Source of the DNA: Mayamaea pseudoterrestris
Taxonomy: Eukaryota; Bacillariophyta; Bacillariophyceae; Sellaphorales; Sellaphoraceae
Assembly: GCA_027923505.1 (NCBI GenBank)
Contig: BROI01000016.1
Location: 1 to 64,000, forward strand
Direction of reading: 5' to 3'
Length of the DNA: 64,000 nt
The position numbers were made by a program, and so were the translations under genes. The notes under the pieces are model-generated. The model did not search any database. It had not been told where the DNA came from and saw only the letters and a list, made by a program, of their open reading frames with translations. Positions 2,762 through 58,951 of this stretch are shown here, piece by piece. Each line of letters opens with the position of its first letter. The first letter of the stretch is position 1.

Positions 2762-3967
2762 TTACTCGTCAGGACGAAACGAGGCGAGTTGGCGCGTTGC
2801 TTGACGCGCAATATCTTCCAAAATGTCGCTGTATCGGTAGGTTTCTGCGTCGTCTTTTACTTTCCGAATCTTTCGCGGTAAAGGGCGTGGTTTTGAGCCG
2901 TCATTTACTTTGAGAATCTTTCGTGGTGAAGAGCTGGACCGAGTAGCGGATAAAAGTTTCCCAAACTTCTGTTCGATTCGCGCTGCAGCCGCGTTTCGAA
3001 CGTCGGAGGATCTACCATGAGTCGCAAGCTTCACTTCGGCAAGGTATTCTACGGTACTGTCAAGAACCTTGGTTCGAATCTCTTCCTCCGATAAATGACT
3101 GCCTTGAAGCTTGGCCTCTATTTGAGCTGCAATTTTGTTGAAATGTGCCTGCTGTTGATGCGATGCATCCGCCACAACCGCTTTGACATATGTCTCTTGG
3201 CCTTGCATCAATTGTGGCTTGATGTCTTGCAGATTGCTCAGAAACTTACCGCGTTCGCGACGGGCCACTAAAAGATCCGCGTCAACCTTCCAAATGAATC
3301 CAGCGTCAATCAAAAGTTGCTTCCGGTCCTGACGAATATCGTTCCGATTATTCAAGTATCTCTGTCGAATCATCCACTTGCAAAACGTTGTATCATTGTT
3401 ATAGAAACGAGGAATGTCGCAATGTCCGTAGGTATCACGAAACTCGAGCAGCTTGAGGTACTGTATGTTCCACTTGCAGTCAATCTTGGGTGTGTTTAAA
3501 TGCTGATGCGATCTAAAGCTATTATTCCACCATTGAAAGTTAATTTCGTCAAGCATGGCGATGCGATCCGCTCGCAAATGACCCTTGGAATGCGTGAGGC
3601 GCTGGGTGTTTACCCAATTCACCAATTTCAAATCATGATAATGTTTTGGTGGATTTGTGCTGTTGTATCGCTTTTTGTATGCAATTAGTTTGTTATACAT
3701 GTCTAGCCATATCTCGTCGTATGCAGGCATGATACGTGGCAATGATGAAGTCGCAGAAACAGCAACAGGCTTCCTCTGGACCGGCTTCTTCGTTTCACTC
3801 TTATATGCAGTCATGATGTGCGTACGTGAAGGTGCTGCAGCATTAGCACCAGCCATAGGACTTCGTACGACCATCTTCTTCATTTCAGTCTTTGATGCAG
3901 GCATGTTATTGCCGTAACAAAGGATTGGTAGTGGCTTGCTTAATAGCGGACGCTCCTTCCCTTTCAT
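2762..3967 (-). CDS. Helicase-associated (HA) repeat protein
   Basis: A single exon of 401 residues. Residues about 95-235 contain two tandem helicase-associated domain repeats: W-x-Y-x3-L-x2-Y ... WVNTQRLTHSKG ... and WNIQYLKLLEFRDTYGHCD ... CKWMIRQRYLNNR, each ending in an R-x5-L-x3-F-x-W signature. HA repeats are small three-helix, probably DNA-binding modules that are very numerous in diatom genomes, often without a helicase. The C-terminal third is basic and Lys/Arg-rich with likely nuclear localisation clusters. The N-terminus has a short imperfect duplication (PASKTEMKK / TAYKSETKK). The first ATG is used here, though the one at 3904 (MPASKTEMKK) is also possible. A DNA-binding nuclear role is inferred. 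Confidence 0.75.
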   Translation of the reverse strand: MKGKERPLLSKPLPILCYGNNMPASKTEMKKMVVRSPMAGANAAAPSRTHIMTAYKSETKKPVQRKPVAVSATSSLPRIMPAYDEIWLDMYNKLIAYKKRYNSTNPPKHYHDLKLVNWVNTQRLTHSKGHLRADRIAMLDEINFQWWNNSFRSHQHLNTPKIDCKWNIQYLKLLEFRDTYGHCDIPRFYNNDTTFCKWMIRQRYLNNRNDIRQDRKQLLIDAGFIWKVDADLLVARRERGKFLSNLQDIKPQLMQGQETYVKAVVADASHQQQAHFNKIAAQIEAKLQGSHLSEEEIRTKVLDSTVEYLAEVKLATHGRSSDVRNAAAARIEQKFGKLLSATRSSSSPRKILKVNDGSKPRPLPRKIRKVKDDAETYRYSDILEDIARQATRQLASFRPDE

Positions 3968-4195
3968 TCCAAAGAAGAACGAGAACGAAGGGAGGTCGAG
4001 TCATGGTGAAGTCACGTCACTCCCAAGATCCGAATGCACGTCGCAGCGTTACATGACGAGAAACGTGTTGCCTTTCCCGGTACGACTTACACGGAAACCC
4101 GCGCCGTCGCGCCTTCGCCCACCATGAACGCACATTCCTTGATCCACAATCTTACCATCTTCATCAATAGGGCGTCTGATCATAGTTATCAAGCC

Positions 4196-12300: not shown

Positions 12301-13230
12301 AACGTTGGAATAAGAGTCGGGCTGTTAGTCTTTGGTGCTTTGGTCGGTGATGAGGTCGAAACCGGATTGGGGCGATCAGACTTTGGTGCCTTTGTTTCCT
12401 TTGGGGCTGGCGTGATTTGTGGCTGAATGTTTTCAACCCGAGTGGGCCCTGGCGTCGGTTCAGGACCTCCGAGCTGCAGGAAAAGGAGAAATTAATCAGT
12501 AAAGGATATCTCATTGATTTAAAGAAGCGCGTCAATATATACATACCGTTGCAAACGGCGCTTCCGTCTCATCATTCGGCAAGAGAGGCTGCTGCGTGTC
12601 AATGTCACCAACGGTAGGCTGTTCGGAAGGCATCGAGGACGGTTTCGCGGATGGTCGCTTTGACGGTCTCGAGGAAGGTCTAGCGGATGGAGCTGGAAAC
12701 ACGGTGATGGATGGCTGCTGCGTGTCAAGCGTTGGAGTTTCGACGGGTGACGTAGTAGGAGCATCGGTTGGCGATGGAACATTGGCTTGTGTCGGTGAAT
12801 TAGTTGACGGCGACGGAGCATTGTTAGCTGATGGCTGTTCATTATCGTCAGGCGTGGGAGCTCGGACGGGTGATGGTGCGCTCGCTGACCCCGAATTTGA
12901 CGCCGACCCTGAGATTGTATGAACGCTCACTTTTTGAGCCGAGCCGCCAGAGTTTGATCCGGACTGCGCCGCCCTTCGCCTACGCTGGTACTCTTTGATT
13001 TGCTGCAATCTGCTGCGATCCAAGGACTTGCGAGTGCTGCCTCGAACGTTGCTTGCTTGACTATTAGTCTCAACGTTCCATGCGCTGGCTGCTTCGTTGC
13101 TTCGTCCGTACTTTTCACGCACTTGTCGCCACTTTGGAATCGACTTGTCTTCGTCTGTGGCTGCTGCCTGCGTTACTGCAGCACCAGCTGCGCACATGGC
13201 AAGGACAGCTAGTAAATGTAGCTTCATCAT
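9336..13230 (-). CDS. Secreted PT/SAP-repeat protein with two Cys-rich domains (paralog 1)
   Basis: Two exons (13230-12547 and 12473-9336, 73-nt intron) give 1273 residues. A signal peptide (MKLHLLAVLAMCAAGAAVTQA) is followed by a conserved head with IPKWRQVREKYG and LDRSRLQQIKEYQRRRR, then long Pro/Thr repeats. A Cys-rich globular domain spans about 503-686 ([36 protein letters not shown]). Another Pro-rich block with SAPVSAAP repeats follows, then a divergent second copy of the domain (about 1095-1273) with STCFLD, FYAGECIGNDSGDHL, KYLSGQVEICPL. Such PT-rich proteins are typical cell-surface or wall/adhesion proteins in diatoms; O-glycosylation of Pro/Thr tracts is likely. The function of the Cys domain is unknown to me. 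It is a tandem paralog of the gene at 14206-18579. Confidence 0.85.
10306..10455 (-). repeat. 75-bp tandem repeat inside the SAP-repeat region
   Basis: The 75-bp unit starting GCCGCGGATACAGGCGCTGC at 10306 recurs at 10381, essentially base for base. It encodes 25 residues of alternating [10 protein letters not shown]. The wider block, about 10190-10530, is built from degenerate 15-bp steps. Confidence 0.8.
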
Positions 13231-14205: not shown

Positions 14206-17200
14206 TTACACGTCCGCGGAAGCTGAGAAATATGTAGGATCTAAGTTTGGATCGCCAAGCGGATCCAAAGCAAACGTTGGAGCTAGAGTTGGTGCAGCCG
14301 TGACAGGTGCAGCAGATACAGGCGCTGCAGTGGCCGGCGCACCAGTAACCGGTACACTTGTAACTGGGGTGGCTGTTGGCTCTTCTGTCAACTCTGGATC
14401 GCCAAGAGGAACAAGTGCTAGTGTCGGAGCTTGAGTAGGTGTAGCCGTGACTGGAGCGATCGAATCGATTGCTGCCATGGTCGGTGCTTCCGTCATAGGG
14501 ACACTTGTTACTGGAGCAGATGAAATAGGTGCGGCTGAGATAGGCGACGCAGGAGCTGTTGTGACAGATACTGGTGCCGCAGAAGGAGCGTTCGAAATTG
14601 GAGCAACAGAGGGACTAGCAGACGCAGGGGCGCTTGAAATCGGTGACGCACTCACTGGGCTGGTGGAAGCAGGGACGAATGTCTCCCCAGCAGTCGGAGT
14701 TGAAGTTTCTTCTTCACCTCCTTGCCCTCCAAAAGGAGCTGCAGTGCTTGGGCTTTCCGTCAACATTTCTGAAGGAGGACAGTCCTCAACAGCAGTTGGA
14801 ACAGGTGTCGCTTCAGGAACTAGTGACATCGTTGGTGCTGCTGTGACTGGCGAACCAGAAACTGGTGCAGATGAAACCGGGGCGACAGAAACTGGTGCGG
14901 AAGAAGCAGGGGCAGCCGAGACTGGAGATGCCGAAAGAGGAAGCGTTGGCGCTGGAGTGTCTTCTTCATTTCCTTGGCCACCAAAAGGTGCTTGGCTACT
15001 TGGACTATCCGTCATCATTTCTGAAGGTGGGCAATCCTCGTGAACTGGCATTACGGAAGGCGCTGGAGTCGCCTCTGGGACTAGGGGCAACGTCGGAGAA
15101 GCAGAAACTGGAGCCACCGACACTGGCGCAGCCGAAACAGGTGCAAGTGACACTGGCGATGATGTAGGCTTGGTAGTTTCTACTGCGTTCGGAAGTGATG
15201 GCGCAGAAGTGACTGGTGCAGACGACACAGGCGAGGCACTAATCGGAGCTGCTGACACTGGTGCAACACTGACTGGAGCGGCTGACACTGGTGCAACACT
15301 AACTGGCGCACCTGATACTGGTGCGGCTGAGACAGGCGAGGCACTGACTGGTGCGGCTGACACTGGTGCAGCACTGACCGGAGCGGCTGATACAGGCGAG
15401 GCACTGACTGGTGCGGCTGACACTGGTGCAGCACTGACCGGAGCGGCTGACACTGGAGCAGATGACACAGGTGCTGCCGAGACGGGAGCAGAAGATGCTG
15501 GTGCGACTGAAACTGGTGCTGCTGATACAGGCGACTTGGTTGGCTCAGGACTGCCCTGTTCGATGAAGGAAGGTGTTGGAGAAGTCGTTGGGCACACGCA
15601 GACGCATTCCGAAGGAGCAGCTGTAGTCTCAACGGGTGCCGGCGATGGGGCTTGCGTGGTGATTGGTAGCGTTGGTGCTGCAGTCATTGCAAGAGTCGGC
15701 TTGGCCGTTGGACGCGGCGACGGCTGAGGTGTTGGACGTGGAGTTGGTCTGCCAGAAGGCATGAAGGTAGGCTCGCTGGTTGGACTCTCAGTTGTCGGTC
15801 TCCTTGTGCGAGGAGCCTTGGTAGGCGAAGAAGTGGGCCGTCCAGTTGGTGAAACAGTCGTGGGTGCCTTTGTTGGAGATGTGGACGGTGCCTTGGTAGG
15901 AGATGCGCTTGGTCCTTCGGATGCCGTGACAGTCGGTGAAGCAGTCGGAGACGCAGTCGTTGGTGCCTTGGTTGGACTGGTAGTTGGAGCCGGCGTCGGG
16001 GAAACACTGGGTCCCTTGGAAGCTGTGACGGTTGGTGAAGCTGTAGGGCTTGCTGTCACTGGCGCCTTGCTTGGAGCCGCTGTTGGCGCCGATGTTGGCG
16101 CCTTGCTGAAAGGAGCTGCCGTTGGCAAAGGAGTTGGTTCGGCTCCACCCTGTTCCTCAAATGGAGCAGCACTTGGAGTCTCAGCAGCATACGCACAAAT
16201 CTCGGCTTGTCCGGATAGGTACAACGGCGTGTGCGAATCCAAAGGAAAGGTATCGTATTTTTGTGTTCCGAACGTCCAGGCGACAGATGTGTACTCGTCC
16301 TGATTGGTAGAGCTGAAGGACCAACGGTCAGTGCCGTCAATGATTGGCATCGTCGATGAAACAGGGTAGTTGAATACGTCATATGGGGCATATTGGTAGC
16401 TTCCGCATTCCATGTCGTTCATCCACGAACCGCCGTTGTCATTCATGACACACTCGCCAGCGTAAAGTTGGAACCCTGTGCTGGCGTAGCCCTTCTTGAT
16501 GTACCAGTTGACCGAGTCAGTATCAATAGTTGCAACACCAAGCAACTCTCCATTGGCCGTGTCGCAACTTGTTGCTCCTCCCCAAATTTCGCATTCCAGT
16601 GGTCCTTCGGCTGCGAAGTCATAGTCAGTCATGTTTATGACCCAACCGCTAGCCTCCTCAGGAGCTTTGATTCCTGGGTAAGTGTCAAAGCATGTTGACG
16701 TTTCAGCACCGCAGTAGATCCAGGAGTAGTAGCAAGGGCCCTCTGGCTTTTCATGGGCGCAATCAGTTGGCGCAGGCGTCTGTGGGATCTGAAGCGCCGT
16801 AGGAATACCGGTTGGTGATGCAGTAGGCGACACAGATGGAGATCCAGTGGGCGAATCCGTCTGTGGCACCTGAAGTGCCGTCGGGACGCCAGTTGGAGAT
16901 GCGGTGGGAACGCCAGTAGGAGATGCGGTGGGGACGCCAGTTGGGGAATCGGTTGGTGATACTGTTGGGCCTCCCGTTGGTGCGCCGGTCGGTGAAGACG
17001 TTGGCGATCCCGTAGGGGAATTGGTCGGTGCACCGGTTGGGGCCGCCGTCGACGAACCAGTCGGAGCAGGCGTCCCTTCTGGAACAAATGGCAAGGTTGG
17101 CAAATCTGTTGGAGAAGCAGTGGGTCCATCGGTGGGATTGCCAGTTGGTGATGCAGTCGGTCCACCAGTAGGTAAGCCAGTTGGGGCGCTCGTTGGAGCC

Positions 17201-18579
17201 GCCGACGGACGTGAAGAAACTGGTTTCATGGTCTTTGGTGGCTTGGTAGGACTTGAAGTCGGCGAAGCAGTAGGAGATCCAGTTGGTGACTTGGTAGGAG
17301 AATCAGTTGGACTGCCCGTTGGCTTGGATGTAGTTACTTTATCTGTCGGACGAGGCGTGCGGACAGGAGCAGCCGATGGACTTCCAGTGGGCCTGCCCGT
17401 GACTGGAGCCTTGGTAGGTTTGTCAGTTGGGGATGCAGTCGGTCGGCCAGTAGGGCGCTCTGTTTCCGGAATTTGAAGAAGCGTGGGAAGGCCAGTCGGT
17501 GAACCAGTCGGCATCGGAGTTGGAGACGCAGTTGGTGCATTTGTTGGAGCTGGACTAGGCTTGCCAGTGGGAGCAGGCGTCGGCACAACAGTTGGCTCAT
17601 TCGTCGGCTCGGGTGATCCAAGAGGAACGAATGGAAAAGTAGGCAACGTGGTTGGCGCCGGCGTTGGAAGTGGAGTCGGGCGAGGCGTTGGCTGAGCAGA
17701 CTGGGGCGCTGGGGTTGGCTGCGGCGTCACTGGAGCTGGAGTTGGTCCATTCGTCGGACGAGGAGTGGGGACAGGTGTCGGCCTGGGGGTCGGATTTGGA
17801 GTTGGTCCATTCGTCGGAAGGGGTGTTGGGGCAGGCGTCGGCTGAGGAGTAGGATTGAGTGTGGGACCATTCGTCGGGACGGGCGTTGGAGCAGGCGTCG
17901 GAGCTGGCGTAGGTGCTGGAGTGGCAATTTTGACTGGAACAGTCGGCTCGAGAGTTGGTTCAGGGCTTCCGAGCTAAATAGACGGAAAGAAGTAACGGTG
18001 AGCAAATGGTTCTGAAAAACGATTATGCAGCCCAATCAATAGAATCAATCTTACCGACTCAAACGGAGCTTCCGTGCAATCCTCAGGCTGAACTGGCTGA
18101 CCGGCAGGCGGCCAAGTGTAAGTAGGCGACTGGACCGGTGGACGGTTCTCCACGGACGCAGATCCTGAGCCCGACCAATACGCGGCGTTTACGTCAGTCG
18201 ACGACGATCCTGAATACCCTGCCGTTCGACGCTTGTTTTGCTGCAAGTGACTGCGGTCCAATCGACGAGTATTACCGCGAAAGCGACTGCTCGAGTCGGT
18301 CGTTCCGCCGGCTGCAGTGAACTGCGTGCAGTCGGATCGCTCCTGAATATCAGTTTCGGGCGATCGGTCTTGCGTCGTCGTCGTCGTCGATGTATCAGTT
18401 TCGCCAGCTCCGTAAATGGCTCGCGCCTGCCGCCACTTTGGAATGTGCTCCTTGGAAGCCGCAGCTTCGTACTTGCGGAGGGGCTTGTCGCTGGACGCTT
18501 CCGTCTTTTTGCCAAAGAGTGAGGCATTGGAAGTGCCGGCGCACAAGGCGAAAATGAACAAGTGATGCAGTTTCAACAT
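14206..18579 (-). CDS. Secreted PT/SAP-repeat protein with one Cys-rich domain (paralog 2)
   Basis: Two exons (18579-18055 and 17973-14206, 81-nt intron) give 1430 residues. The signal peptide [20 protein letters not shown] and the head with [12 protein letters not shown] and [12 protein letters not shown] match paralog 1, and the intron sits at the same place, before LG(S/G)PEPT. Pro/Thr repeats (GxPTxxPT) occupy about 190-580. The Cys-rich domain lies at about 588-771 ([33 protein letters not shown]) and is very close to that of paralog 1. The rest is PT and [10 protein letters not shown] repeats with four PFGGQG/CPPSEM spacers. It ends in [12 protein letters not shown] and lacks the C-terminal second Cys domain present in paralog 1. 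Cell-surface or extracellular role inferred. Confidence 0.85.
15345..15460 (-). repeat. 60-bp tandem repeat in the SAP-repeat region of paralog 2
   Basis: The segments starting at 15361 and 15421 (CACTGGTGCAGCACTGACCG) repeat with a 60-bp period. The surrounding block, about 15190-15540, consists of degenerate 15- and 30-bp steps coding for SAAPVSA units, different in register from the 75-bp repeat of paralog 1. Confidence 0.7.
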
Positions 18580-20150: not shown

Positions 20151-22798
20151 ATGACGACACCTCACCACTGCGTACTCAATGTTGGGCACTACCGCACTGG
20201 GTCAGCAACGCTTGCCAAGGCAGCCAAGATTGCTGGATATCGCGTGCATCGAGCCTTCTTCCAGACGCTCGACCCATCGTCCCATAAGCTACTCCTGCTT
20301 GACCCTGAAAAAGCCGTGTGGAAGTGGTGGACTGAGCAGGATGGACGGAGCGAGCTGAGTAAGCTCATTGAATCGAACGACTTTGTCTGTGATGGATACG
20401 TCCCCTGGTTGCTTCTGCTGCCAGAGCGCATTGTAAGCTCGTTCTGCCAAGAAATGACAGCGAAGGGCATATCGCTTTCATTTATCGCCACAACTCGCCA
20501 GTTGGAAACACTTGTTGTATCCGAGCTCCACCATTGGGTAGTTCATGCACTCGAAGCGGAAGCTGGCCTTGATGAAGCAGAGCGCGACAGTTTGGAAAAA
20601 TCGCTACGTAAACGCGCCACTCTGCATTCCAAAGTGTTGAAGCTGCATTCGATTACTTCCTTGGCTCTGGAAGAAATAAGCTTTTGGGCCGGCAAGCTCG
20701 ACAAGATATTTGACTTGCCCGGCAAGGCTTGGTCGAAAGCGTTGAAACAAGCAGGGCATCAAAATGTCGCTCCGACCCTCCCCTTGCAAGGAGTGCTCTT
20801 AACGTTGCGCATAGGAACAGCTTTAACTTCAGTCACGCATAGAGTTGGAACAATGATAAAAAGTCTGAAGCAAGACCGGTTGTGCAACATGATTGTTGTT
20901 CTAGCTCTCGACGACGACGAAGAAGGCTCGCCACTTGCTGATCAATTGGTTGAACATTTGCAACAGTACTGCCGCATCATTATTATGAATAATCCTCCCA
21001 AAGACCCGTCGTCTCCCTTTCCAATTTGTCAAGTGTGGGATCGAATGGCAGCGACTGCCTTTGAAGAAGGTTGCGATTGGGTCATGCTGCTTGGGGATGA
21101 CATTGCAATCGACTGCGCCATCCATTTCCGGCTGATCTATCGAGCGTTTCTCGACATTTCAAAAAAGCTTGGCTGTCCTTTCGGCTTTGGTTGCCCCTGG
21201 TGGAACGATACGACTTTTAGCGGGTTTCCAACGTTCCCGGTGGTTGGAAAGGCTCATTATGAGATTTTCGAAAGCCTCGTCCCTCCTCATCGTGCCCGAG
21301 CTTTTATCAACCAAGACTTGGATCCGTACATCCAACGTATGTACCTAAAGTTTGGTGCTGCACCGTTGCTCCAAGCAGCGAGATTAAGCAATAACACGGG
21401 TGGCAATAACATCAATCCTACCCGCTACGAGAGAGTTGCAGCGACAGGATGGCGAGATTGGGTGTTGCAAGACGTTCGACCAGTCAAAGAATACCTCTCC
21501 AAATATACTGATTTTGAATGCATTCTTTTAGACGTCGTCGTTCCTTCCTATCGAATCGATTTAGAGTATCTGGAACGCATTTGTCGTCTCCAGGTCCCAG
21601 AGAATGTGAGAACAACATTCATTATCGTCATTGATAATCCAGTGGAGCTCAACCAAATGTATGGCACTAACAAAGCGGACGACGCCGCGATCTTGATGGA
21701 GATTGACCTGGCTGAAAAGACCAAGAACAATATCCGTGTGCGTTGTAACTCAGTCAACTCGGGTGCCTCGGCGAGCCGAAACAGGGGACTCGATGAAAGT
21801 GCCGCAGAATACATCCTCATGCTCGACGATGATGTTATTCCAAATAATGACCTGCTCTATCAGTACGAGACAACTTTGCAAACTATAAGTGCATCGACCG
21901 TTGGTATCGTCGGCATGGTCCGTTTTCCGAGGAGAAGCGACTTGCCATTGTTGCACGCTGCAGTTCTGATGAGCTATCTGACGTTCATGTTCGAAATCGC
22001 ATCCAATGAAAAGTATAAGAATCCAGCCTGGGGTGTGACGGCTAATTTGCTTGTCAGACGATCTGAAATCAGGTTCGACACCGTCTACGCAAAGACTGGC
22101 GGCGGCGAGGATGTTGATTTCGCTCTGCGCCTCGTTCAAGAAACCGGCGGTCGCCTACTCACGAATCCGCAAGCGTTGGTGACGCATGAATATTGGCCTG
22201 GCGGAATGACTGCAATCTTGGCTCACTTTTATCGCTGGGCTATTGGTGACTCGGCGTTATTTAAAAGGTCAGTTCGATACGTCTGATGTCAATAAGCTGA
22301 CATCGTCAATGTCTGGTGAGATATTCTCATCTCATGCATAACTACAGATACCCAGATCATTGCTACCGGTCATGGCCAAATGCCGCCGAGTCGATTGTGT
22401 TTTGGGTGGTAGTGTGCCTCCCTTTTATAGTTACAGGAGATTTGGCATTGCTCTTTATTTTTGCGCAGATTCTGGGGATCTACATGGTTGACGTCGGGTC
22501 CGAGTTGTTTAGTATCAGTGACTTTCAGCACCGTTGCTCTTTACTGAAGCACAAGTTTCCCATTTGGTACCTTGTCGCTGCGCATCTCATTGCCAACATT
22601 TACGTCATAGCGCTGGAGTCCGGCCGATTGTACGGTCACGTCAGTCGCGGCGAGGTTTTTCAAAATGCGTGCCGACGGTTTGAATGGCATTGCGGAAAGT
22701 TGCCACACGCAAGGGAACGTTTCGTTCGTCGTGAGGCAATCAAGTTTGTGGGTTTTGTTCTTGTGGCTGCGCTGAACCTCAACCTTTGCTTGAAGTAG
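20151..22798 (+). CDS. Sulfotransferase-like / glycosyltransferase fusion, membrane-anchored
   Basis: Two exons (20151-22267 and 22348-22798, 80-nt intron) give 855 residues. Residues 1-200 resemble the PAPS-dependent sulfotransferase fold, with the 5' phosphosulfate loop-like HYRTGSATLAKAAKIAGYRV, the DGYVPWLLLLPE segment and ATTRQLETLVVSELHHW. Residues about 220-440 look like a glycosyltransferase-A domain (VVLALDDDEEG, DWVMLLGDDIAID). A second GT2-like domain follows (about 462-705) with NSGASASRNRGLDE, LMLDDDVIPNN (DxD-type motif), ARTGGGED-like KTGGGEDVDFALR and THEYWPGG. The second exon adds two hydrophobic helices (IVFWVVVCLPFIVTG, LIANIYVIAL). A Golgi enzyme making a sulfated polysaccharide is plausible; substrates are unknown. 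Confidence 0.7.
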
Positions 22799-37469: not shown

Positions 37470-40400
37470 CTATACAGAGATTGGATCATTAGGATTCTCA
37501 AGCACACACATATCGTTGAGGCAGGCGTAGACGTCATCGCCCGACCAAACGCCAAGCTGCTCTTGCAGGGTTTTGCGAAATGCATCATTCGCAAACATGC
37601 CCTTGATAAACGACTTGTCAGCCAAGTGCATCAAACGTGACATGACGCGTTGCGCCTTCTCTTTAGTTAAGCTTGCATCCGCAACACGTTTATCATACGC
37701 AACTTTGCCAGTCTGATCCATCTTCGTGTTCTTGAATGCGCTCGTAATGAATTCCATTCGCTTCACAGAAAGTACAGCGAAGAGTAAAGCGCGTTGGCGT
37801 TCACTATCTGAAGCCATTATTTTGCGTTCATATTGCTCATTGGCAAATGTTTCGAGAAAGGCAACATTGTCAGCGACAATGCAAAGCGGAGCGTCAATTA
37901 AATCCTCGATGAAAATTGGGATCTCGGCTTTGATTTCAGTCTGCAACCTCTTAAGCTCCGCACCGTTGACGCGGGGGTAGTTGTTCTTGACGCGAACCTT
38001 CTCGTAATCAGCCCCGTAGTCAATTTTTATCTCGATCGGCTTGTCCACTTTGAGAACAAATTCCTGCCGAAAATGTCCCAACAGGTAGTGCATCTATTTG
38101 AACCGCAAAGAATAGTAAGGCACACAGTTTCATCTGAAATTGATAAAAACACTCCAAGCACTCACCTGCCCAGCTGGATCCCTCCGTGCAATCACACATG
38201 GAATCTCGATTCCGTCAGTTTCGTTTACAAAGGGAAGAATATTGCATCGTGCAGTCTCCTTAAGCTGGCCAGTACGGACATTGTCTCCAATATCGATAAA
38301 GTCGGAACCATCCTCATCAAGCACCCCAAATGCGTAGGTGTCAGCTTTGAAATTATGAATAGAATTCTTGCAACGAAACTGCTGATGAGGCATGTAGTCC
38401 TCAGGTCGACCGTAAACACCGATGTCAAGAAATACTCCCGGAGACAGCTTGAAGCACTTTGAGTTTTTTGTACTTCGAGAGGCCGATTTACAAACTAGAA
38501 AGCATCCCAAGTTAGCTTCCACATGATTGATGGCAGATTGAGTAACAAAGAAAGTAAGTTCCCAACCATTGTACGAGAGCGTGCGGGAAGGCAGACCATT
38601 TGCGCCCAACTGTGCCCGAACTGTGCTTGGAACTCGCCAGATCGCGTAATCGTCATGGAACTTTTCGGTGTTCGTCATTGAGTATGAATGACAATACCCT
38701 AAATACCCTCCAACAGTATCGGAGTAATCGAGGTTACAAAGTGTGGTGATAGGGGTGCGACGGTCGACCGCTTCACTTTTCAATCGATTCACCGATGACT
38801 CGTTCAAACAGACTGTAAAGCGCTCCACTCCACCAGCGACGTAGCAAGCCGATATGGTCCCTTCAACAGAGCAAGGCCTGTTGTTTGCATCCCACCAATC
38901 GTGTCTGTAGTCTTTCCCCAGAAGTGGATGCTTGTCGAGTTTCTGCATGTACGCCAACCCGAAAAAGTCATTCAGCACATCGGTCATTTCCGGAGCGGCA
39001 TCATTTTTTTGGGTAAACATCGGAAAGGTTTTCCAACCATAGACCCTGCCGCCCGGACTGAAGAAGCGAAGGGACACAGAATCAAGTTTCGCGTGAGAGC
39101 TGTCGCACTCGTCGCGGTCGGTGCAAGCAACAACAGTCAATGTCCATCCTGGCCACCGCAAAGGGAGTTTTGCCTGCATGCGGCTACACAACTAAAAGAT
39201 GTAACGATGCTGAGAGAAAGAACGCTTAAGTTCGAATGAGATAAAAAGAAAGTCATCATATCGCACTCACCTTGTGCAAGCAAACAACATCCTTCGTGTT
39301 TGTCTTGCACATCAAGCATGCGCCACAATCATCCTTATCGCACATGGCACAGATACCACAAGATCCATTCTTAAGCAAACGGATATATTCTATGTAGTTG
39401 AAAGTTTTACATAGTGCGCTCTCATTGGCATCGGCCAAAGCATCATGTTGCGTCGGACACAAAACATCTGATGCGCCGCTGCGTTCGTTACGCGTACCTG
39501 TGTATTTCAGGGCACTCCCACTCCCACTTACCGCATCTTGATTGTGCTTTAATCGCCGGCCAGGCGACGATCGAAAGCCTACCTGCTTTTTCTGCTCTAC
39601 GCCCGCATGCGTGTAGAAAGCCACCACATCGACATGCTCGAGTTGCTTTCGACTGTGGTTGATAGCATTTTCGAACGAGATATACCGACGTACGCCGTTT
39701 GGAGCTAACAACACGATATACGGAGCTTGATGTTCAGGCCGAGCCATTTTATGGAAGGCAAATCTCCATCCTTTGGGAAAGCCCTTCGCAGCGAGCGCCT
39801 TTGATTCCAATGGAATTTTTTGGCACATGGTCTGTAAATGAAATAGACAGAGCGGTTAATAAGAAATCGCGAAATAGAAACACGAAATGCACGATGCATA
39901 CTACCTGAATGCAACTCGGTCCTTCTCGACAACCGTAGCAGCGAGCGCAAGGCGCCGCCGTGCAAAAGTAACAAGATCCGCATCGCTGTGTAGGAGACAT
40001 CGATGCTGCTTCGTCCTGCTTCAACAATCCTCGATCCAGTAATCCTTGCAAGGCTCCCAAATAAGCAAGATTCTCATTCGGAAAGTGTTTGATCAAATGA
40101 GTCGCAGTGTAATAATCCTGAAGAATAAAACACAGATATTTGTTAGGTTGATACTGGTCGACCCATCGAGTCAGCGAGAAGTCGTACCTTACGAGGGACA
40201 TCATGGCGTCGGTCGCCGTCTTCAAACTCCACTGATACAAAAACTGATCTACCAACGTGTCGCTTCTCTGTCACCTCGCCCCAATAGTATCGCTGTAGAG
40301 CAGTGTAAATAGATGAAACCAGTGTGAGGCAAGTCAAGTGATTAGCAGCGCAAGAGATGAGCCTTTATATGCCACAGAGCAATATATACGTACCCCTTTA

Positions 40401-41086
40401 TGCTCATCACGGTCCCATACGCAGTAAACAAGTGATCCTACTCGCACATGATGCATGTCGACTAGCAGGTCATCGTCCGCATCCTTGGGCTCGCCGCGTG
40501 CTTGACGCGCTGACACCTTTGCCGAAGCTGTACCCTTACTAAAAGCTTGCTTTGTTGCAGCCCCCATCTTTGGATTGGCGGCTGCTTGCGCAACGTTCAT
40601 TGGACTGCTGACCATTGTCTTGCGTGAAGATAGTCGCTTGTACGCGGTAGTGTTTGCGGCCATGGGGGCTTCCTTGCGCTTGGCAGCACTTGTACGTGTC
40701 GCTTCGACTTGGGCGACTCCAGCCATGGGATCCATAGTGGCGGGATACTCGTCATCCATTACTTCACTCTCGCTGTTCATTGGCTCCGCGCGAGTCGCAA
40801 AGAAGGATGATGTAACGACTTGAGGAGGAGCATGAGCTGCTGCATCAATCAAGTCTTCGTCTTTAATGTCACCGCAGATGGAAATGGCTGACGAGTCGGA
40901 TCCATCATCGCCATTGCTATTGATATTATTGCTGTTACGATTGAAGGTTTGATTCAAATGATTCATTCGGCTTGGAAGAGCAAGCGGGGAATCTCCCGCC
41001 GAGAAACCTGATGATGACTGATCATCATCATAGTCCTCAAACTGTCCATTGCTGGCCAGCGAATGCTTGAAATTATGAGCCGACAT
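37470..41086 (-). CDS. Tudor-CXXC-MBD-CXXC-MBD-SET-like chromatin protein (paralog A)
   Basis: Six exons (41086-40394, 40292-40188, 40117-39905, 39831-39271, 39191-38166, 38093-37470), all junctions phase 0, give 1073 residues. An acidic Ser/Asn-rich N-terminus precedes a Tudor domain (about 207-266: VGSLVYCVWD ... YYWGEV ... VEFEDGD) split by intron 1. CXXC finger 1 (312-340) is CGSCYFCTAAPCARCYGC ... C-x4-C. MBD-like module 1 (about 354-400) reads GFPKGWRFAFHK ... IVLLAPNGVRRYISFENAI. CXXC finger 2 (495-526) is CGICAMCDKDDCGACLMC. MBD-like module 2 (about 535-583) contains SLRFFSPGGRVYGWKTFP. A SET-like domain (751-905) has FLDIGVYGRPED, CNILPFVNETDG and the terminal IEIKIDYGADYEKVR. The classical NHS motif is replaced by VNE, so activity is uncertain. 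Predicted nuclear CpG-sensing methyltransferase-like regulator. Confidence 0.75.
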
Positions 41087-41703
41087 TGCGTCAAAATTGT
41101 CAGTATTGCGACTCGACGTTATTCAAGCAACTCTTGTAGTAGCTGCTCTTCTGTTATCGAATGGCTTGAGAGTAAGTAGAATGATTCTTGCTGGAAAACT
41201 CGGCGAAAGTTGCTGCCAAAGAACAAAATTAATCGAGAGCTTGACTGTCACAACTGAGCGATCAATGTATCACTTCAATCCTCCCAGCTTTGTACTATCG
41301 CTACAATATGCGACACCTGGAAAGAAACGTCGTCAATCTCAATACTCGCCGGCAATGGGAGGCAGGAATAATCAACAAGAAAATCTTGCGGTCGAAGCGC
41401 GCACTTGTGTCGCGCACGTGTGTGACGCCCCGATGCCGCGCCAAGATACAGTTAAAACCGCTGCGTCGTCGTTACTGTCGCGAGCGACAGTGAGCTACCG
41501 TAGGCATACGATACGATAGTTTGCGACGCCTGCCTTACGACAGCTAGCTTGATACAAAATGAATCATCAATTAGAGCAAACATACAGCTAGTGTCTTTGT
41601 CTATGTTGTGGAGTACTCGTAATCAAAACGTGTGGCGCGACTCAAGCATCACTGATGACACCCAGTGCCAGCAAGTCATGGTTTAGGTGAGAGCTGCCAC
41701 AGA
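41087..41703. other. Intergenic region between the tandem SET-like genes
   Basis: About 617 bp containing the promoter of paralog A and the 3' end of paralog B. Plus-strand frames here (41097-41519, 41290-41493) overlap one another and have no recognisable domain. Confidence 0.45.
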
Positions 41704-44700
41704 TCAAAGGCACATTGTATCGTACCAGGCATCAAAGTCGCCAACTGTTGCTAATCCAAGAGACTTTATGATTGGTTCAAGATAAAACGGATCCGCAAGC
41801 ATGTTGTGCAACAATGATGGCGCCAGCATGTTCACCAAAATTCGTACCGCAGCCAGAATGTTTGCCTTCATGGTAGCAACGTCGATCGCGGCTGCCTCAC
41901 GATTCGCGCCCATTACCGCTACATTGTCGTCTTGGGCATTGATCTCATGCAGCAAAATAATGGCCACCAACAGTGCGCGCTGATGCGCTTCATGCTGAAC
42001 GACATGTACGCGGCGTTTGACTTGCTTGGCAAAGTTTTTCAAAAAGGCAGCATGTGCGGCGAGTACATCCGGTGTTGCGTTGACGCATGACTCAATATAG
42101 TCAGAGTCTTCTTCTTCAATTTCGCGTTTAAAAACGTCCAACTGCTTACCAGTTACGCGCGGATAGTTGTTTTTAATGCGATTCTTCTCGTACCCAGCGC
42201 GGTAGTCATTTTTCACTTCATATTGCTTGCCTGGCTCAATTTTGAATTCTACAAACTGATGGCCTAAATGGTAATGGATCTGCGCATGTATAAGGGTATC
42301 GATTGAGACGAGGAGCGTGGAAACGGAAACGAAGAACCGCCCTTATCACTTACTTGGTTAGCAGGGTCAGTTAAAGCCATGATGCATTCGATTTCGATGC
42401 CGTCCGTTTCGTTTACATAAGGCAAAATGTTCCTGCGCGCGGCTTCATTGAGATCTCCGGTAAGATCATCGCTAACATCCAAAACCCGGCGCTGCTTGCC
42501 AATGGCAGGGACATCGAATGCGTATCTGCCAGGCTTGCCCTTGTGGATAAAGTCCTTCAATTTACCAAGCGATTCAGGTATACAGTCTTCAGGTCGTCCG
42601 TAGACACCAATGTCAATAAACTCGCTGGCGGCCAGCGTCATGTACTTGAGATTTTTGGTGGCGGGTGAACAGCTTTCGCAGGTGACAAAGCATCCCAAGT
42701 TTGCCTCCTTGTGGTCAATTTTGGACCGCTTCACTTCGAATTTCAACTTCCAGCCCCGATAGAAAAGCTCACGACATGGCAAACCACTCGCATCCATGTA
42801 ATTGCGAACGCTTCCAGGCACGCCCAACGTCAAGGCACAATCGTCGGTTTTTACGGCAGGGAGCTCAAGTGAATGATGCTGAGCATACGCAGCGACACCG
42901 CTCCAAGTGCACATATGCTCAAGGCGCTGGACAGCTGAGACTGAAAACTGGCCGCCGTTGGCACTATTATGCGACTGGACATATGCGTCGTCATAGCGGA
43001 TAATGAACTGTGTCTTCGTGACATTTGTAATCGTCCCTTCGATGCATTGTAGCCGACCTTCCATATCAAGCCATTCGCGTCGAAAGCCTCGCCCCAGAAA
43101 CGGATGATTCGCAGCGCCAGTGCTCGTGATTTTGAGTCCAAACATGGCTTTGACAAATTTCGCCTTGTGCGAAGCTCCGTCGCGTCTTTTTGCAAAGGCA
43201 GGAACACTTGCCCACTTGTACACCCTACCGCCGGGGCCGCCGAAACGAATCGACACGGAGGCGAGATCTGGATGAACTACGTCTTCATTGTCTTTCTTAG
43301 TCCGGATGACAACTTTAAAACTCCAGTCCTTCCATTTTGCCAAATGCAGAGGAATCCATGGCGGCTTCATTTGGGAGCATGGCTATGTTGGCGATTAACA
43401 ATTTTTAGCATGTGGTCATATTACACATCGGAAAGCAGCAGCCATCATCCTTACCTTAAGTAGACAGACCTTGACGTTTCCTTTCATCTTGCAACCTTGG
43501 CAATTACCGCATTCACGCTTCATACAATTGGAGCAATTGCCACAACATTGATTCCGCATCGTCACGAGGCCTGTTTTGAAGTCAGCTGGCCCGACGACAC
43601 TTTTCGTGCCGCGTTTGTTCCACAGTCCCTTCTCAATCAACCCCGGCAAAGCTCCTATGTATTCGAGTTCAGCTTTGTCGCCACTGGCGACCATGAAGTC
43701 CGCAGTGTAAAAGTTCTAAGCGTGGGGGACGACGCAGGTCAGCCAACGGTAGCGCAATGGTTCATGTAATGACAGCACACCAAGACCATACCTTGGGCGG
43801 CACATTGTCTAGAGTATCGCCATCGTCAAACAAAATGGACACCGTAAACGAATTGCGATTCGCTTTCTTCGCAATTACCTTACCCCAAAAGTAGCACTGC
43901 AGGTTCGAAGGAATCGTAACTGTAAGTGAGTCTGGCGAATGAATAGAAGACAAAAATAGACCATGTCAAGACTTACTCCATCAGCCTGATCGCCTTTCCT
44001 CGTCCATTTGGCAAAGACGATTGATCCTTTTTGAACATCTTCGCTACCAGTTCCTTCTTCCATTCCCACTTCGTCCACATCCGCACCCGCGCCGTACGCA
44101 TCAGCATTGCCATCCAGTCCAAACTCCTCCTCGTCGTCATCATCCTGCAAACGCTTAGGCATGCTTTGACGGCGTCTTTTTGTTGTTACATGTGTAAGGA
44201 TGAACCGATCGGTACGGGTTCGAGACCGCTTGGCTGGCAATTGCTCTTCTTGTGTTTTTAATTCGTCACTTGCAATCGGATACGCCAACAGATCATCGTT
44301 CTTCTCGTCGGCCTCACTACCACTTTCTTCGTCTTCAAATACAGCATCCATTGCCGACGATGCATCTCCAAATTCCGATTCGCTCGTCGAGGTCATTTCA
44401 AGCTTTTGCGCAAGTGACTGTGGGGCAACAAGAGACGGAGCAGCCGCGAACAAATTGCTATTGTCACCTGGACTCATCTTCAGCAGCGACTGATTAGAGA
44501 ATATCTCGTCCAATATTTCATGGTCTAGATTGGTTTTTGGCGCTCTAGCCGACTTTGCACCGAAAAGTTCCGAGGGTCCGTCCGTGCCATGTCGAGCCGC
44601 GGTTGCCCGCGCTATTACGTCTGCACTCTGCAGCACTGAATCGCTTCCAAGTGCATGAGAATGCGCCGTCGCGGCAAATCGAGACGACTTGATGTTGTTG

Positions 44701-44858
44701 CTGCTGCAAACGGAGACTGGAGGTTCAATGTCTGATGCGACTGAAGAACGATTGTCAATTTTGTTCTCATCATTCATCGAGCTACTCTTCGCGCACTTTT
44801 CATCATTTGCAGACGAACTGACTCGATCATTCTCGATACAGGGGTTCTCCTCCAACAT
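41704..44858 (-). CDS. Tudor-CXXC-MBD-SET-like chromatin protein (paralog B)
   Basis: Five exons (44858-43977, 43896-43792, 43715-43455, 43382-42354, 42279-41704), all phase 0, give 950 residues. A long acidic N-terminus (DDDDEEEFG) leads to a Tudor domain (about 270-329: GSIVFAKW ... CYFWGKV ... ILFDDGD). The second exon is 105 bp, the same as in paralog A. One CXXC finger (386-418) reads CCGNCSNCMKRECGNCQGC ... C-LLK-P-C. An MBD-like module (about 425-475) contains SIRFGGPGGRVYKWASVPAF. The SET-like domain (644-798) is collinear with paralog A over 116 residues before the last intron: FIDIGVYGRPED, VLDVSDDLTGD, RRNILPYVNETDG, then FKIEPGKQYEVKNDY. The second CXXC-MBD unit of paralog A is absent. 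A helical C-terminus follows. A chromatin reader/writer role is inferred. Confidence 0.75.
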
Positions 44859-45534
44859 ACTCGCTCCTGCTAATGTTGATGTCGTATATAGAATGAATTG
44901 CTTGCAATATTCTGATCTCGGCTGTACGGTAACTGTTTCTCACGCGAAAATCTTGCTCAATTTTACGACTAAGCTTGCGCAGGTCTCGCTGACGGTAAAA
45001 GTTGAATGGTGCAAACAAAAGGCAGATGTTGCAACTGAAGTGAATAAGTCGATGCGTTGCTCGTCAATAAACAACTCTTGCTTGCTAGTATCTCGTTGTT
45101 CTCGCAACGAAGAAGTGAAGATCCGCGACGCGAGAGATTTTTTGCGCGCCGTGTGCCTGGCCGGCGCGACGAGAATTGAGTACCGCTACGATTAGTCGAC
45201 ACACGAAGCACACACGCCCACATTCGCTTTACCCGTTACCGCCGTACTATTCGACGCGCGCGCGAGCCATTGAGCTCATCGTCGTCGTCTCGAGCTTGTC
45301 GATCTCCTTGTATTCTCGTCGAGGTGAGCATCATGGGGTTGTTTTATGCTGAAGAGGCGAACCAGTCGACTGAATTATTGATAGAAGGCCATGCGTAGCG
45401 CAAAATCTTCGGTTGCAGGAATCAAAGCTTTGCCTTCATCGACTGCCGTCATTGTATGAGCTTGTTTCTCAACTTCCATTTTCTTGTTTCACCTCCATTC
45501 TTCAGTCTCTAATATCAAATAAATATAATAAAAA
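44859..45534. other. Divergent promoter region, SET-like paralog B / eL43
   Basis: About 675 bp. A sequence CGAGGTGAGCATC near 45320 and a pyrimidine-rich CCATTCTTCAG ending near 45503 could bound a 5'-UTR intron of the ribosomal protein gene, as is common for such genes. No other gene seen. Confidence 0.4.
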
Positions 45535-45819
45535 ATGGGTAAGCGCACAAAGAAGGTCGGAATCACTGGTAAATACGGAACCAGATACGGTAGTACACTC
45601 CGTAAGCTTGTCCGCAAGATTGAAGTGAGTCAACATTCCACCTACCGCTGCGTCTTTTGCGGCAAGGATTCCGTCACGCGAAAGTGCGTCGGTATTTGGA
45701 AGTGCAAGTCCTGCGCCAAGGTGGTGGCGGGTGGAGCCTACACGTTGAGTACGCCAGCGGCGGTGTCGGTGCGATCCACCATTGGACGACTGCGCAAGAT
45801 GCAAACGGAGAATCCTTAA
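45535..45819 (+). CDS. RPL37A: Ribosomal protein eL43 (L37A)
   Basis: A single exon of 94 residues, the usual length. [33 protein letters not shown], the zinc ribbon C-x2-C ... C-x2-C (CVFCGKD ... WKCKSCAK) and [20 protein letters not shown] are all conserved. It is a component of the large cytosolic ribosomal subunit near the E site. The ATG context AAAAATGGGT has the purine at -3 and G at +4 expected of a strong start. Confidence 0.97.
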
Positions 45820-55176: not shown

Positions 55177-58100
55177 TTATATTTGACGTCTAAGGACCCT
55201 TCGATTCGTCGTCGAGCCGTCGGCAAAAGTACAGAGTGAGCCCTTGCAACATGTGTCGTAAGCCGTTTGAGTGTAGCCCGCCGCACATACATCGGGATCA
55301 TAGTCGACGACAGACTTGGTGCAGAAAACGCCGCCGCCTCCGCCGCACTGTGATGCTTGAATCCTGAACGAGCCATAACCAAAGTTCGGAAGACGTATTC
55401 CGTTCCGTTCAAATCGCGGAATTGCATAATTGACCTCGTCGCGAGCAATCATATTCCAAGTTGGGACACCCAGCCAGTCTGGATTCCCTGTCCACGTGCG
55501 CGCTAGCATGAAGACGCGAAAGGTTAACACGCCCGAAGCATCGACATGGTACACGTTGCCCGCTCCCGTTCGTACAAGATCGATTGAAGCAACCGAGTGC
55601 AGATACTCATGGCAGCTTGACGAGCCATCCCAATTATCCCAACACCAACTTTCAGCGTCTGCACTTATGCTAAACACAGTCCCGACAGGATAGGCAATGC
55701 TGAGCAGAAGAGTATCCTGAGGAGCAACCTCAATCTGTGATATTGTCAAATCGCGAGGTGCTCCGCCGTTCAGCTTCAATATCCAGCCAAATCCGCCAAC
55801 TGGGCCGACAGTGTCCGGATTGGCAGTAATAGCAAGGCCTTGGCTGGTACCAGAATGCATTGGACTAAATTTATAACCTGCGTGTCGAATGTAGCCTTCG
55901 GCAGGACATGGTGCATTGTTGCCGTTCCCGCAGTAGTCATTTCCCGTTTTGTCATGCAAGGCTGGGTTCCATTCAAAATGGACATGAGCAAGTCCTCTAC
56001 TAGGTCCATTGTTCTTCTTGATAAAGCTCACAGGACCTTGCTCGTCAAACGTGACATCATCGTCCACCCTCCACCAATCTTTTGCGCTTAGTAGGCCCGA
56101 TCCAATTAGAACTGGCTCACCAAGTCCAGACGCTGTCCCATCCATGTCCAACCAGTTCTGGCAGCGGCCCGACACAGTATCCTTAGAACCCATGGTGTAC
56201 TTAAATCGACGACCGCAGTCTGTAAATGTGAGCGCCTTGGTGGCTTGCATTATTTCTGGCACAAACTGATCAGAATGTGTTAAAAAGCCAAAGGTGGTAG
56301 ACGAGTCGCTGCATCCCTTGGCACCGTCCAACTCGGTACCACAACCTCGCGTCGGCGACGTTTCGTATTGGTCGAGATCATCTGATCGATAGCCACAGTT
56401 CTGGAAAACAGCATTAGTTATAATGTGGCTCTGGCCAGTATCGTACCAATAGAATCCGCTGCCCTCTAACTTGGCAGCTGTTCCGGGAATGGGGAGGCCG
56501 AGATCTTCGCCAGTTCGACAGGCGACATACATGTTGTCTATCCAAAACCCGTCAGAAAGCGCTTCAATAGCGAGTCTTTGATCGTACGCTTCAAACCCTT
56601 TAACATTCATTTGACCAGTCCACGAGTTGAGACCAACGCCGGCTGTCAAAAAAGTCTTGGTGTTGGTAAAGTTGAGCGGTAAAACATCCTCTTCAGCGCA
56701 CCAGCAATATGCGCCCACACAGGACTTATACTCGGCGCAGGGCGAGCGCAAGTCTCGGTCAAAATTTCCACGACCAGGGTTGTAGCGCAGACTACCATCT
56801 TCTTTAAAGTATAGCGACCCACCGACGTAAAGCGCGCCTGCATGCTCCCACCAAAACCCAGTCGAATGAGCTGTGTTGCCGTCAAAGGTCAGTACACTTG
56901 CACTGCCTGGTCGCAAAATGACATCATTGTGAAGACCAATGGGCTTTTCAAGCACTGGAAAGGCAAATCCGGACCATCCCTGTTAATCGTAAGAGGAAGG
57001 TGACAGGAGATCGTAAGAACATCTCACAGGACAAAACATTGTTCGCACCAATAAAACTTACTCCGCTGGCAGCATTACCAAAAATGCAATTGTGAACATT
57101 GGTGATGTAAAATCCAGACGCTGCTACATCAGCTGGCAATGTCAGCTCGCTTCCAGCCACTTTCGACGCATCATAGTCACTCAACCCTTGGCTGCTGCCC
57201 GACGGAAGCTCGGGACCAAGCGTATGAATGTGAGCGGCGAGGTTGTAGGAGATCGTATTTTCCTCTTCCACGCCATCTTCCAGATAGTAACAATATCCAG
57301 TGACGTCGTAGGCAACATTTTCGGAAACGGTTGCCTTGTTTGTACCATGCACGGATATACATCGATAGTATGATCTATGTACCGAGCTTTCGCGAAAATA
57401 GCAGGTCGGACATTCGTTAAGCAGATGAAAATGCATTGGATAGCGACCCAAAACATTGGTTTGGCCCATGCGATAAAGCTCAATACCTTCAACCTGAGCA
57501 GTTCCAGTTCCAAGCACCATGACGTGTCCGCCAAACCCAGTTTTCATTGCGTTCGTGTTGGGCCTTGGAAGGTTGTAAAGAAAGTGCCAATTTGGATACG
57601 TGGTCACTTTAAGGTTCAATAAATCTTGGTCAGTTGGCTCCGAATCGTCCGCTGCACCTTGAATGACAATGGTCCGCGACAAAAGGCCCGCTTCTACTTG
57701 ATAGTAATTGTTGGCAACGTGCTTATACTTTGTCGGCTGCATCAAGTGCACCACAGCACCAACTCCAGCCGGTGTATCTGCCGCACTGGCAACTTGATAG
57801 ACTGTGACTACCTCGTTTTGATGAAATGCCCGCGAGTCGTACATGATGCTTGACGTCAAAACTACTTCTTGTCCACGTTCCCAGTTGACTGGTTGCTGAA
57901 GCAAGAGCACTGTTTTGCCAGCTTCTATAGTTTTGGCAAGTCTTGACCATGTTGCGTAGTAGCGCTTCCCGTGCAGACTCAATTTTCCAGTCACCACAAT
58001 ACCCTTGGTAGTCGGACTTGGAACGTTTTGAACAACGTCCACTGGCCGCGCGCCCCAGAGAGTGATGCTCGTTGGCGTTTCAATTCGACAAGTCTCGCTT

Positions 58101-58732
58101 CCAGCCACAAGTTTGCCCTTAACGTCCACACCTTTGACGAGCATTGTGATTCCAGCAGAATTCTCTCCCAAAATCAGGTCAGTCGACGCTGGAACAGTAA
58201 TAACGCCAAGTTTCTCCAAGACGGACTGTCGAACGACAATCTTGGATCTAGCCGGAAGCGTCACATCGGCTCCAGCGCTGGGAATCGCACCACTTGGCCA
58301 AGTGCTCGCATCATGCCAACTCTTCAAGCCACTCTGCAGATGCGGACAGTTGGTTCGTGCGTTGCCTTGTATAATTATTGGAACTGGTGGATTTGGCAGA
58401 GAAATGACTTTGGAGTTTGTCGCCGATGTAATGTAGGGACCGCTAGGTACTGGACCCAAGGTGACCGCTGCCGATGGCGCTAACGTCGGCTTGATGGCAC
58501 ATTTTGCTAGGCACTGGTCTTGACACCTCTGCTTGACGAGTTTGCCAGTCGACAAGTCGGTCATGCGGCAGTACTTGCGCTTGCTTGCGACTTGACTGCA
58601 GCGAAGCGATTGTCGTACGTTATTGACGCGAACGACGACCTTCAACCCGACATCATTCTTGCACGCATGAGCAATCGAGTTGAACAAAACGATGAGGAGC
58701 AACAGTGCCCGTGGCGCCTTGCTGTGCCCCAT
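55177..58732 (-). CDS. Secreted G8-domain / CEMIP-like beta-helix protein
   Basis: Two exons (58732-57062 and 56979-55177, 82-nt phase-0 intron) give 1157 residues. The signal peptide MGHSKAPRALLLLIVLFNSI ends at AHA. A short Cys-rich region and a Pro-rich linker precede the G8 domain (about 190-320: SWHDASTWPSGAIPSAGADV, LGVITVPASTDLILG, GITMLVKGVDVKGKLVAGSE). The parallel beta-helix that follows carries LGRYPMHFHLLNE, the His-rich signature of the CEMIP/TMEM2/PKHDL1 family, then ENVAYDVTGYCYYLEDGVEE. The second exon encodes WSGFAFPVLEK and a C-terminal Cys-rich tail. Animal CEMIP degrades hyaluronan; the algal substrate is unknown. The inner ATG at 58732 is chosen because it starts the signal peptide. 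Confidence 0.82.
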
Positions 58733-58951
58733 TATCGCAATCCTTGGTCCCTTGTTAATTGACAAGCTCGATGCTGCGTGCTGCGCGTTTCCCTTCCCTC
58801 GATTCCACTTCCAACAACTGTTGTAATACCAAGCACGCCTAGAGAATTCTGCAAGCTTATTGAGTATCACGTAAAGTTGATCGAGTGGGATCAAACAATG
58901 TCGTTGCTCGCTTGTCTAAAGTTGTCGTCCCAAGCAAGAAAATTTTTTTGG

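Follow-up and report, generated by a model that had tools for sequence, protein, structure and literature searches.

Two neighbouring genes of the diatom Mayamaea pseudoterrestris, here called GA and GB, raise the question of what sort of protein an alga makes from a Tudor-like module, one or two CXXC-like fingers and a long, conserved C-terminal domain. The genes are on the minus strand of contig BROI01000016.1 (GenBank assembly GCA_027923505.1), positions 1 to 64,000 of which were analysed; this whole stretch of 64,000 nucleotides is referred to as the window. A first-pass annotation had described them as a tandem pair fusing Tudor, CXXC, MBD-like and SET-like domains, all of them in one polypeptide, which would couple CpG sensing to histone methylation. 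The part of this description that stands is the presence of Tudor-like and CXXC-like modules in one predicted polypeptide, which the sequence supports, whereas the MBD is unsupported and the SET domain fails the standard tests. The explanation favoured here, with about an even chance of being right, is that the two genes go back to an old tandem duplication and encode chromatin readers or scaffolds, in which the C-terminal tail perhaps has a degenerate SET-like fold.

The gene structure gives the first part of the answer (coordinates are collected in Table 1). All eleven exons have open reading frames, and the nine introns, 70-101 base pairs (bp) long, are without exception GT-AG introns in phase 0, which bears out the eleven exons over two genes originally proposed. 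The two proteins are 37% identical over 583 amino acids (aa) (BLASTP, expectation value (E) 3e-109), with 35% identity over 131 aa in the Tudor/CXXC part (BLASTP), and codon position 3 is the most variable position in each of the six GA/GB regions compared. Every one of the four GB introns has its counterpart in GA, the matched sites being inside the Tudor-like module, after this module, between the last two cysteines of the finger and inside the C-terminal block, and the one extra intron of GA, which has no GB counterpart, lies in GA's additional finger. Judged from these features, both are real multi-exon, multidomain genes, and they are old tandem duplicates, that is, distantly related neighbouring copies. 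No third copy was found within the window by tblastn with both proteins, the off-pair matches having E values of at least 0.72. Because only a short intron parts the fingers from what follows (73 bp from GA finger 1 to the next block, 79 bp from GA finger 2 and 72 bp in GB), each gene is most simply read as coding for one predicted polypeptide. A split into a Tudor/CXXC gene and a C-terminal gene was also considered and is implausible, since the introns are short and the arrangement occurs in both paralogues.

A Tudor-like module appears, with moderate support, in both proteins. The pattern W-G-x-V...F-x-DGD, from which a Tudor signature had been proposed, is present in GA and GB alike, and every Pfam family listed at E<=10 for the Tudor pieces (four families for GB and two for GA) is a Tudor family or Agenet, but the profile side of the proposal is weak, all Tudor-family matches falling under the Pfam cut-off (best E 0.0032). 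The scan of the whole proteins lists the same families at E 0.017-0.16, and NCBIfam has no family for GB aa 275-553. A second Tudor-like module, seen by eye in the HPLLG/HPFLG..EGTI stretches, was rejected, as Pfam lists nothing there.

CXXC-like fingers, as far as sequence can tell, are well supported in both proteins. Nine columns are invariant across the three fingers, eight of them cysteines, and in all three a phase-0 intron falls between the last two cysteines, one or two residues ahead of the final one. The classic layout that had been reported, CGxCxxC-x4-CGxCxxC...C-x4-C, holds in full for GA finger 2 and the GB finger, while GA finger 1 has a variant of it (CGxCxxC-x4-CxxCxxC...C-x4-C). 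When a profile of the three fingers was searched against the PDB at E up to 10, CXXC-bearing proteins made up 18 of 20 distinct sequences (DNMT1 11, TET-type 4, MBD1 1, KMT2B 1 and CXXC4 1), the other two being an endoglucanase and ribosomal eL40. The top match (4hp1/4hp3, E 0.0037) is Xenopus TET3 (PMC3685328; this source and the others cited below are drawn on in part of their text), and GB aa 275-950 alone gave three matches in the PDB, all of them TET-type CXXC chains, at E 2.1-5.4. Furthermore, zf-CXXC is the sole Pfam family listed for each finger piece, although every score stays below the cut-off of 26.5 bits (GA finger 2 17.5, GB 12.0 and GA finger 1 11.1 bits). With a hidden Markov model (HMM) of four CXXC sequences, the score of GA finger 2 was reached by none of the 776 shuffled sequences that scored, out of 1000 made.

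Whether such fingers sense CpG depends on their type. Type-1 CXXC fingers have KFGG and contact CpG through KQ or RQ, type-3 (TET) fingers have a short linker and use HQ for the CpG contact, and type-2 fingers are without the DNA-binding loop and apparently make protein contacts in MBD1 (PMC3685328). The linker of the GA and GB fingers is short and type-3-like, and the K/R/H-Q contact dipeptide is absent from all three fingers, its position having been assigned by alignment by eye; the three residues before the seventh cysteine, likewise aligned by eye, are VKV in GB, DVV in GA finger 2 and GPS in GA finger 1. Because this dipeptide is missing in all three fingers, CpG recognition is not to be assumed, and the CpG sensing originally suggested is doubtful. 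The observed/expected ratio of CpG in the window (1-64000) is 1.07, so there is no CpG depletion hinting at heavy methylation in it.

Each of the three fingers is followed by a W..P-x-G block, which had been taken for an MBD-like domain on the strength of its W...P-G-G pattern. Beyond this pattern the MBD identity of the blocks is not supported: Pfam has no MBD match for any of the three, the block profile has no match in the PDB, and GA block 1 has two matches there, both flavin monooxygenases and neither an MBD. In comparisons with MBD2, the score of GA block 1 was reached by a fraction of 0.181 (local) and 0.075 (glocal) of 1000 shuffles, that of GA block 2 by 0.073 and 0.044, and that of the GB block by 0.498 and 0.859, and the similarity of the blocks to MBD2 is at or near chance. 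With an HMM of two MBD sequences, 222 of the 397 shuffles that scored did at least as well as GA, and GB had no score. The AlphaFold model of the GB block (84 aa, three sequences) has the order beta-beta-beta-alpha at a predicted local distance difference test score (pLDDT) of 56; Foldseek with this model gave 575 matches, none of them at E<=0.001, and no MBD among the best 50 of the 575.

The surplus of GA over GB is one unit of CXXC finger plus W..P-N-G block, about 170-180 aa, which the first-pass annotation had overlooked; from this we infer that the finger-plus-block unit was duplicated inside GA. The blocks alone carry no signal of duplication, the score of GA block 1 against block 2 being reached by 0.634 (local) and 0.721 (glocal) of shuffles and that of GA block 1 against the GB block by 0.862 and 0.677. 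Only when finger and block of GA were compared together as one unit did the score exceed all 1000 shuffles, and this is ascribed to the cysteines.

The C-terminal block of about 200 aa is 52-53% identical between GA and GB and is the most constrained of the six regions (differences at codon positions 1, 2 and 3 of 0.33, 0.30 and 0.64), while the tail past it is 26% identical. The motifs from which a SET-like domain had been read, GVYGRPED and DY-x-A-x-YEK-x-R, are indeed present in both proteins, but the searches did not follow them. Pfam has no SET match in the block and NCBIfam no family, and the block profile has three matches in the PDB, none of them SET (two phosphoserine phosphatases and Asp3), at E 0.27-0.76. 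An HMM made for this analysis from 82 of 86 fetched SET loci (80 prokaryote and 2 viral; in the other four, all viral, the matched stretch was too short) found no match in GA or GB in max mode, and in comparison with shuffles its score for GB was reached by 275 of 478 scored, GA having no score; hhalign to SET gave a probability of 1% and E 0.05, and set GVYGRPED against the NHSC region. With every standard SET test negative, and with strong constraint yet no database match, the block may have no relation to SET and be a domain peculiar to this lineage; GA and GB would then be regulators that bind DNA or chromatin and carry this domain alongside their Tudor-like and CXXC-like modules. This is the alternative that survives best, and we still hold it to be rather unlikely, given a partial signal in glocal alignment and an ending of SET-like appearance, both described below.

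The NHSC motif of SET domains (RFINHSCxPN) is absent in both proteins, which have NILP(Y/F)VNETDG there instead, and this argues against an ordinary SET methyltransferase. The first-pass annotation mentioned neither this absence nor that of the contact dipeptide in the fingers. The SET ending GEEL-x-x-DYG is matched in part only (PGKQYEVKNDYR in GB and VDKPIEIKIDYG in GA), GA having VDKPIE in place of PGEE and GB having DYR in place of DYG. A lenient glocal alignment to the SET profile stood at z 2.6 relative to 60 shuffles, and one or more of these scored at least as high. With 400 shuffles and three gap settings, 4, 0 and 10 shuffles equalled or beat the full pair, and 26, 18 and 61 did so for the pair trimmed to the core; when 147 segments of 16 other open reading frames (ORFs) of the window were used in place of shuffles, none came up to the score of GB alone, 5 to that of GA alone and 60 to the pair average. 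The traceback aligns NILPYVN to NVARFIN and ALTD..IEPGK..EVKNDY to ALRD..IKPGE..ELTYDY, but over its first half YAF falls on the GVF motif of SET and the next 27 profile positions are deleted, which contradicts the SET motif order read by eye (LGxF, FIDIGVY, YAF, (I/L)D, N-I-x-x-x-V-N-E and E[IV]K-x-DY).

These results bear on a second alternative, close to that of the first-pass annotation, in which the domain would be an active, highly divergent SET methyltransferase with VNE for NHSC and the whole protein a chromatin writer. The motif order by eye, the full-pair counts, the standing of GB above all 147 segments and the paired stretches of the traceback (NILPYVN/NVARFIN and IEPGK..EVKNDY/IKPGE..ELTYDY) speak for it, but they are set against the negative Pfam, HMM, hhalign and PDB results, the counts after trimming, the segments that reach GA and the pair average, the conflict in the first half of the traceback, the absence of NHSC and the altered ending in GA and GB, and we regard an active enzyme as unlikely. 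More doubtful still is that GA and GB represent a lineage-specific family in which a Tudor-like reader, duplicated CXXC/MBD-like units and a divergent VNE-type SET domain are combined, as an undescribed merger of the SETDB1, MBD1 and MLL kind. That the domain combination is an annotation artefact, either unrelated genes joined or decayed copies, is highly improbable in view of the identical order in two paralogues, the GA counterparts of all four GB introns, the eleven open frames with phase-0 GT-AG introns and a finger-to-block step of only 72-79 bp, and the third codon positions being the most variable in all six regions.

What is favoured, then, is the pair of readers or scaffolds. The C-terminal block may have a degenerate SET-like fold; the case for SET is weak, and a SET domain here, should there be one, would probably be non-catalytic. 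In such a protein a long N-terminal stretch, acidic and Ser-rich by eye and presumably disordered, would lead into the Tudor-like reader, to be followed by the CXXC-like finger or fingers (one in GB and two in GA), each with its W..P-x-G block, and by the C-terminal domain of about 200 aa. The tail of a histone or another protein would be the docking site of the Tudor-like module, the fingers would bind zinc and touch DNA or protein with no preference for CpG, and the C-terminal domain, catalysis having been lost, would play a binding rather than a methylating role, presumably in the nucleus. There is no support for CpG sensing coupled to histone methylation, and the missing residues, the contact dipeptide and NHSC both being absent, speak against it.

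Several points weigh against this explanation. No domain reaches the curated Pfam cut-off, and the Tudor profile has no match in the PDB. The 11 DNMT1 matches of the finger profile belong to one family, and 8 of the 11 cover only the first half of the finger (profile positions 2-25), while the GB score with the four-sequence CXXC HMM was reached by 5 of 621 scoring shuffles, out of 1000 made. Structure prediction for the SET region covered GB exon 4 and its GA counterpart, a part of the C-terminal block, and the resulting AlphaFold2 model, with a pLDDT of 30, is unusable. Moreover, the strong constraint on the C-terminal block could equally be compatible with enzymatic activity.

Table 1. Positions in the window of GA, GB and their modules
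Feature	Positions	Strand	Residues	Remarks
Gene GA	41086-37470	minus	1073 aa	Spliced model; 6 exons: 41086-40394, 40292-40188, 40117-39905, 39831-39271, 39191-38166, 38093-37470
GA Tudor-like module	40188-40447	minus	from aa 214	Spans intron 40393-40293; BAHCC1-like_Tudor E 0.0061, Tudor_2 0.096
GA CXXC-like finger 1	39823-39982	minus	aa 312-340	8 Cys; zf-CXXC E 0.42; intron 39904-39832 between last two Cys
GA W..P-N-G block 1	39643-39780	minus	aa 355-400	MBD-like by pattern only; no Pfam or PDB MBD match
GA CXXC-like finger 2	39186-39360	minus	aa 495-526	zf-CXXC E 0.0042; match to own CXXC HMM; intron 39270-39192 between last two Cys
GA W..P-G-G-R block 2	39003-39155	minus	aa 537-587	Conserved with GB; MBD not supported
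GA conserved C-terminal domain, possibly SET-like	37968-38594	minus	aa 724-908	Spans intron 38165-38094; identity to GB
Gene GB	44858-41704	minus	950 aa	Spliced model; 5 exons: 44858-43977, 43896-43792, 43715-43455, 43382-42354, 42279-41704
GB Tudor-like module	43792-44036	minus	from aa 275	Spans intron 43976-43897; Tudor_5 E 0.0032, BAHCC1-like_Tudor 0.0079, Tudor_2 0.027, Agenet 0.16
GB CXXC-like finger	43377-43544	minus	aa 387-418	PDB TET-type matches; zf-CXXC E 0.22; intron 43454-43383 between last two Cys
GB W..P-G-G-R block	43176-43337	minus	aa 432-485	Model with beta-beta-beta-alpha order, pLDDT 56
GB conserved C-terminal domain, possibly SET-like	42154-42782	minus	aa 617-801	Spans intron 42353-42280; identity to GA

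Relatives were sought by scans that require exact short peptide or DNA matches, which distant relatives may escape. Peptide patterns gave 40 stretches in viral contigs and 112 in prokaryote genomes, none of them a relative; with pieces of the single paralogues one scan of viral contigs gave 14 stretches without a relative and another gave none, and tblastn against phages gave no match. Of three scans of viral contigs with DNA patterns, two found nothing and the third two loci, which are unrelated (best tblastn E 2.5). A GB match to the locus L064 (E 0.013) at 804-926 precedes the SET match at 1001-1306 and is taken as chance. One of the two empty DNA-pattern scans was for an algal SET family with NEP for NHS, and this single negative carries no weight.

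As for the surroundings of the pair, 20 of the 32 listed ORFs were scanned with Pfam, and the matches of these neighbours include EAP30/Vps36, a helicase-associated domain, a protein kinase and G8/CEMIP beta-helix; together with the introns they are in keeping with a eukaryote. The divergent neighbour of GB is an ORF of 95 aa at 45532-45819 (plus strand), which we take to resemble ribosomal protein eL43/L37a. At 20151-22283 (plus strand) an ORF of 711 aa shows an odd pairing, a match to glycosyltransferase family 2 with an N-terminal Toprim just below threshold (22.3 against 23.1 bits). On the minus strand are two long ORFs at 9339-12491 and 14209-17973 (1051 and 1255 aa), the starts of which are rich in Pro-Thr repeats and the first of which has no Pfam match, an ORF of 412 aa at 2765-4000 with two helicase-associated (HA) domain stretches, and two overlapping ORFs at 55180-58915, with matches to CEMIP_X (weak), G8 and CEMIP beta-helix, which are perhaps one gene.

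Among known proteins, SETDB1 has the order Tudor-MBD-SET. GA and GB are like it in that a Tudor-like module precedes a block that is possibly SET-like, and Tudor_5, the best Tudor match of GB, has the description of a histone methyltransferase Tudor; they are unlike it in adding CXXC-like fingers, in having an MBD and a SET domain which are only putative, and in lacking NHSC. MLL1/KMT2A has a catalytic SET domain, and GA and GB resemble it in that a CXXC-like finger precedes a C-terminal block that is possibly SET-like, whereas neither its type-1 finger nor its catalytic SET is demonstrated for them. The assignment of the MLL1 finger to type-1 is that of PMC3685328. The type-3 fingers of TET1, TET3 and CXXC4 have in common with those of GA and GB the eight cysteines and the short linker without KFGG, and they are the best PDB matches, but GA and GB are without the H-Q dipeptide, stay below the Pfam cut-off and have no dioxygenase family listed. 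MBD1 combines CXXC with an MBD. The GA and GB fingers lack the CpG-contact residues, as do CXXC-1/2 of MBD1 (PMC3685328), but in GA and GB the MBD is unsupported, the linker is short and not of type-2 length, and a Tudor-like module and a C-terminal block are added.

In a literature search of partial coverage, no title or abstract start among the matches listed dealt with CXXC proteins of diatoms or stramenopiles. Phaeodactylum tricornutum has a SET-JmjC gene model, and homologues of SETD1, SETDB1, EHMT2 and SETMAR occur only in Ectocarpus (PMC3145265); in the main text of that paper CXXC and MBD do not appear, and Tudor appears only in a reference. Two SET families are specific to brown algae (PMC13076208), and the available part of this source does not mention CXXC, MBD or Tudor. 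The CXXC domain of DNMT1 is an addition in holozoans, and methylation in P. tricornutum is limited to transposons (PMC12344493). The parts available of PMC8566409 and PMC9409253 contain nothing on diatom CXXC.

If the C-terminal block is indeed SET-like without NHSC, GA and GB would bear on how SET-like domains lose or re-route catalysis. A Tudor-like and CXXC-like protein with a conserved C-terminal domain in a diatom, and so in a stramenopile, is a concrete candidate for a reader of the state of DNA or chromatin.

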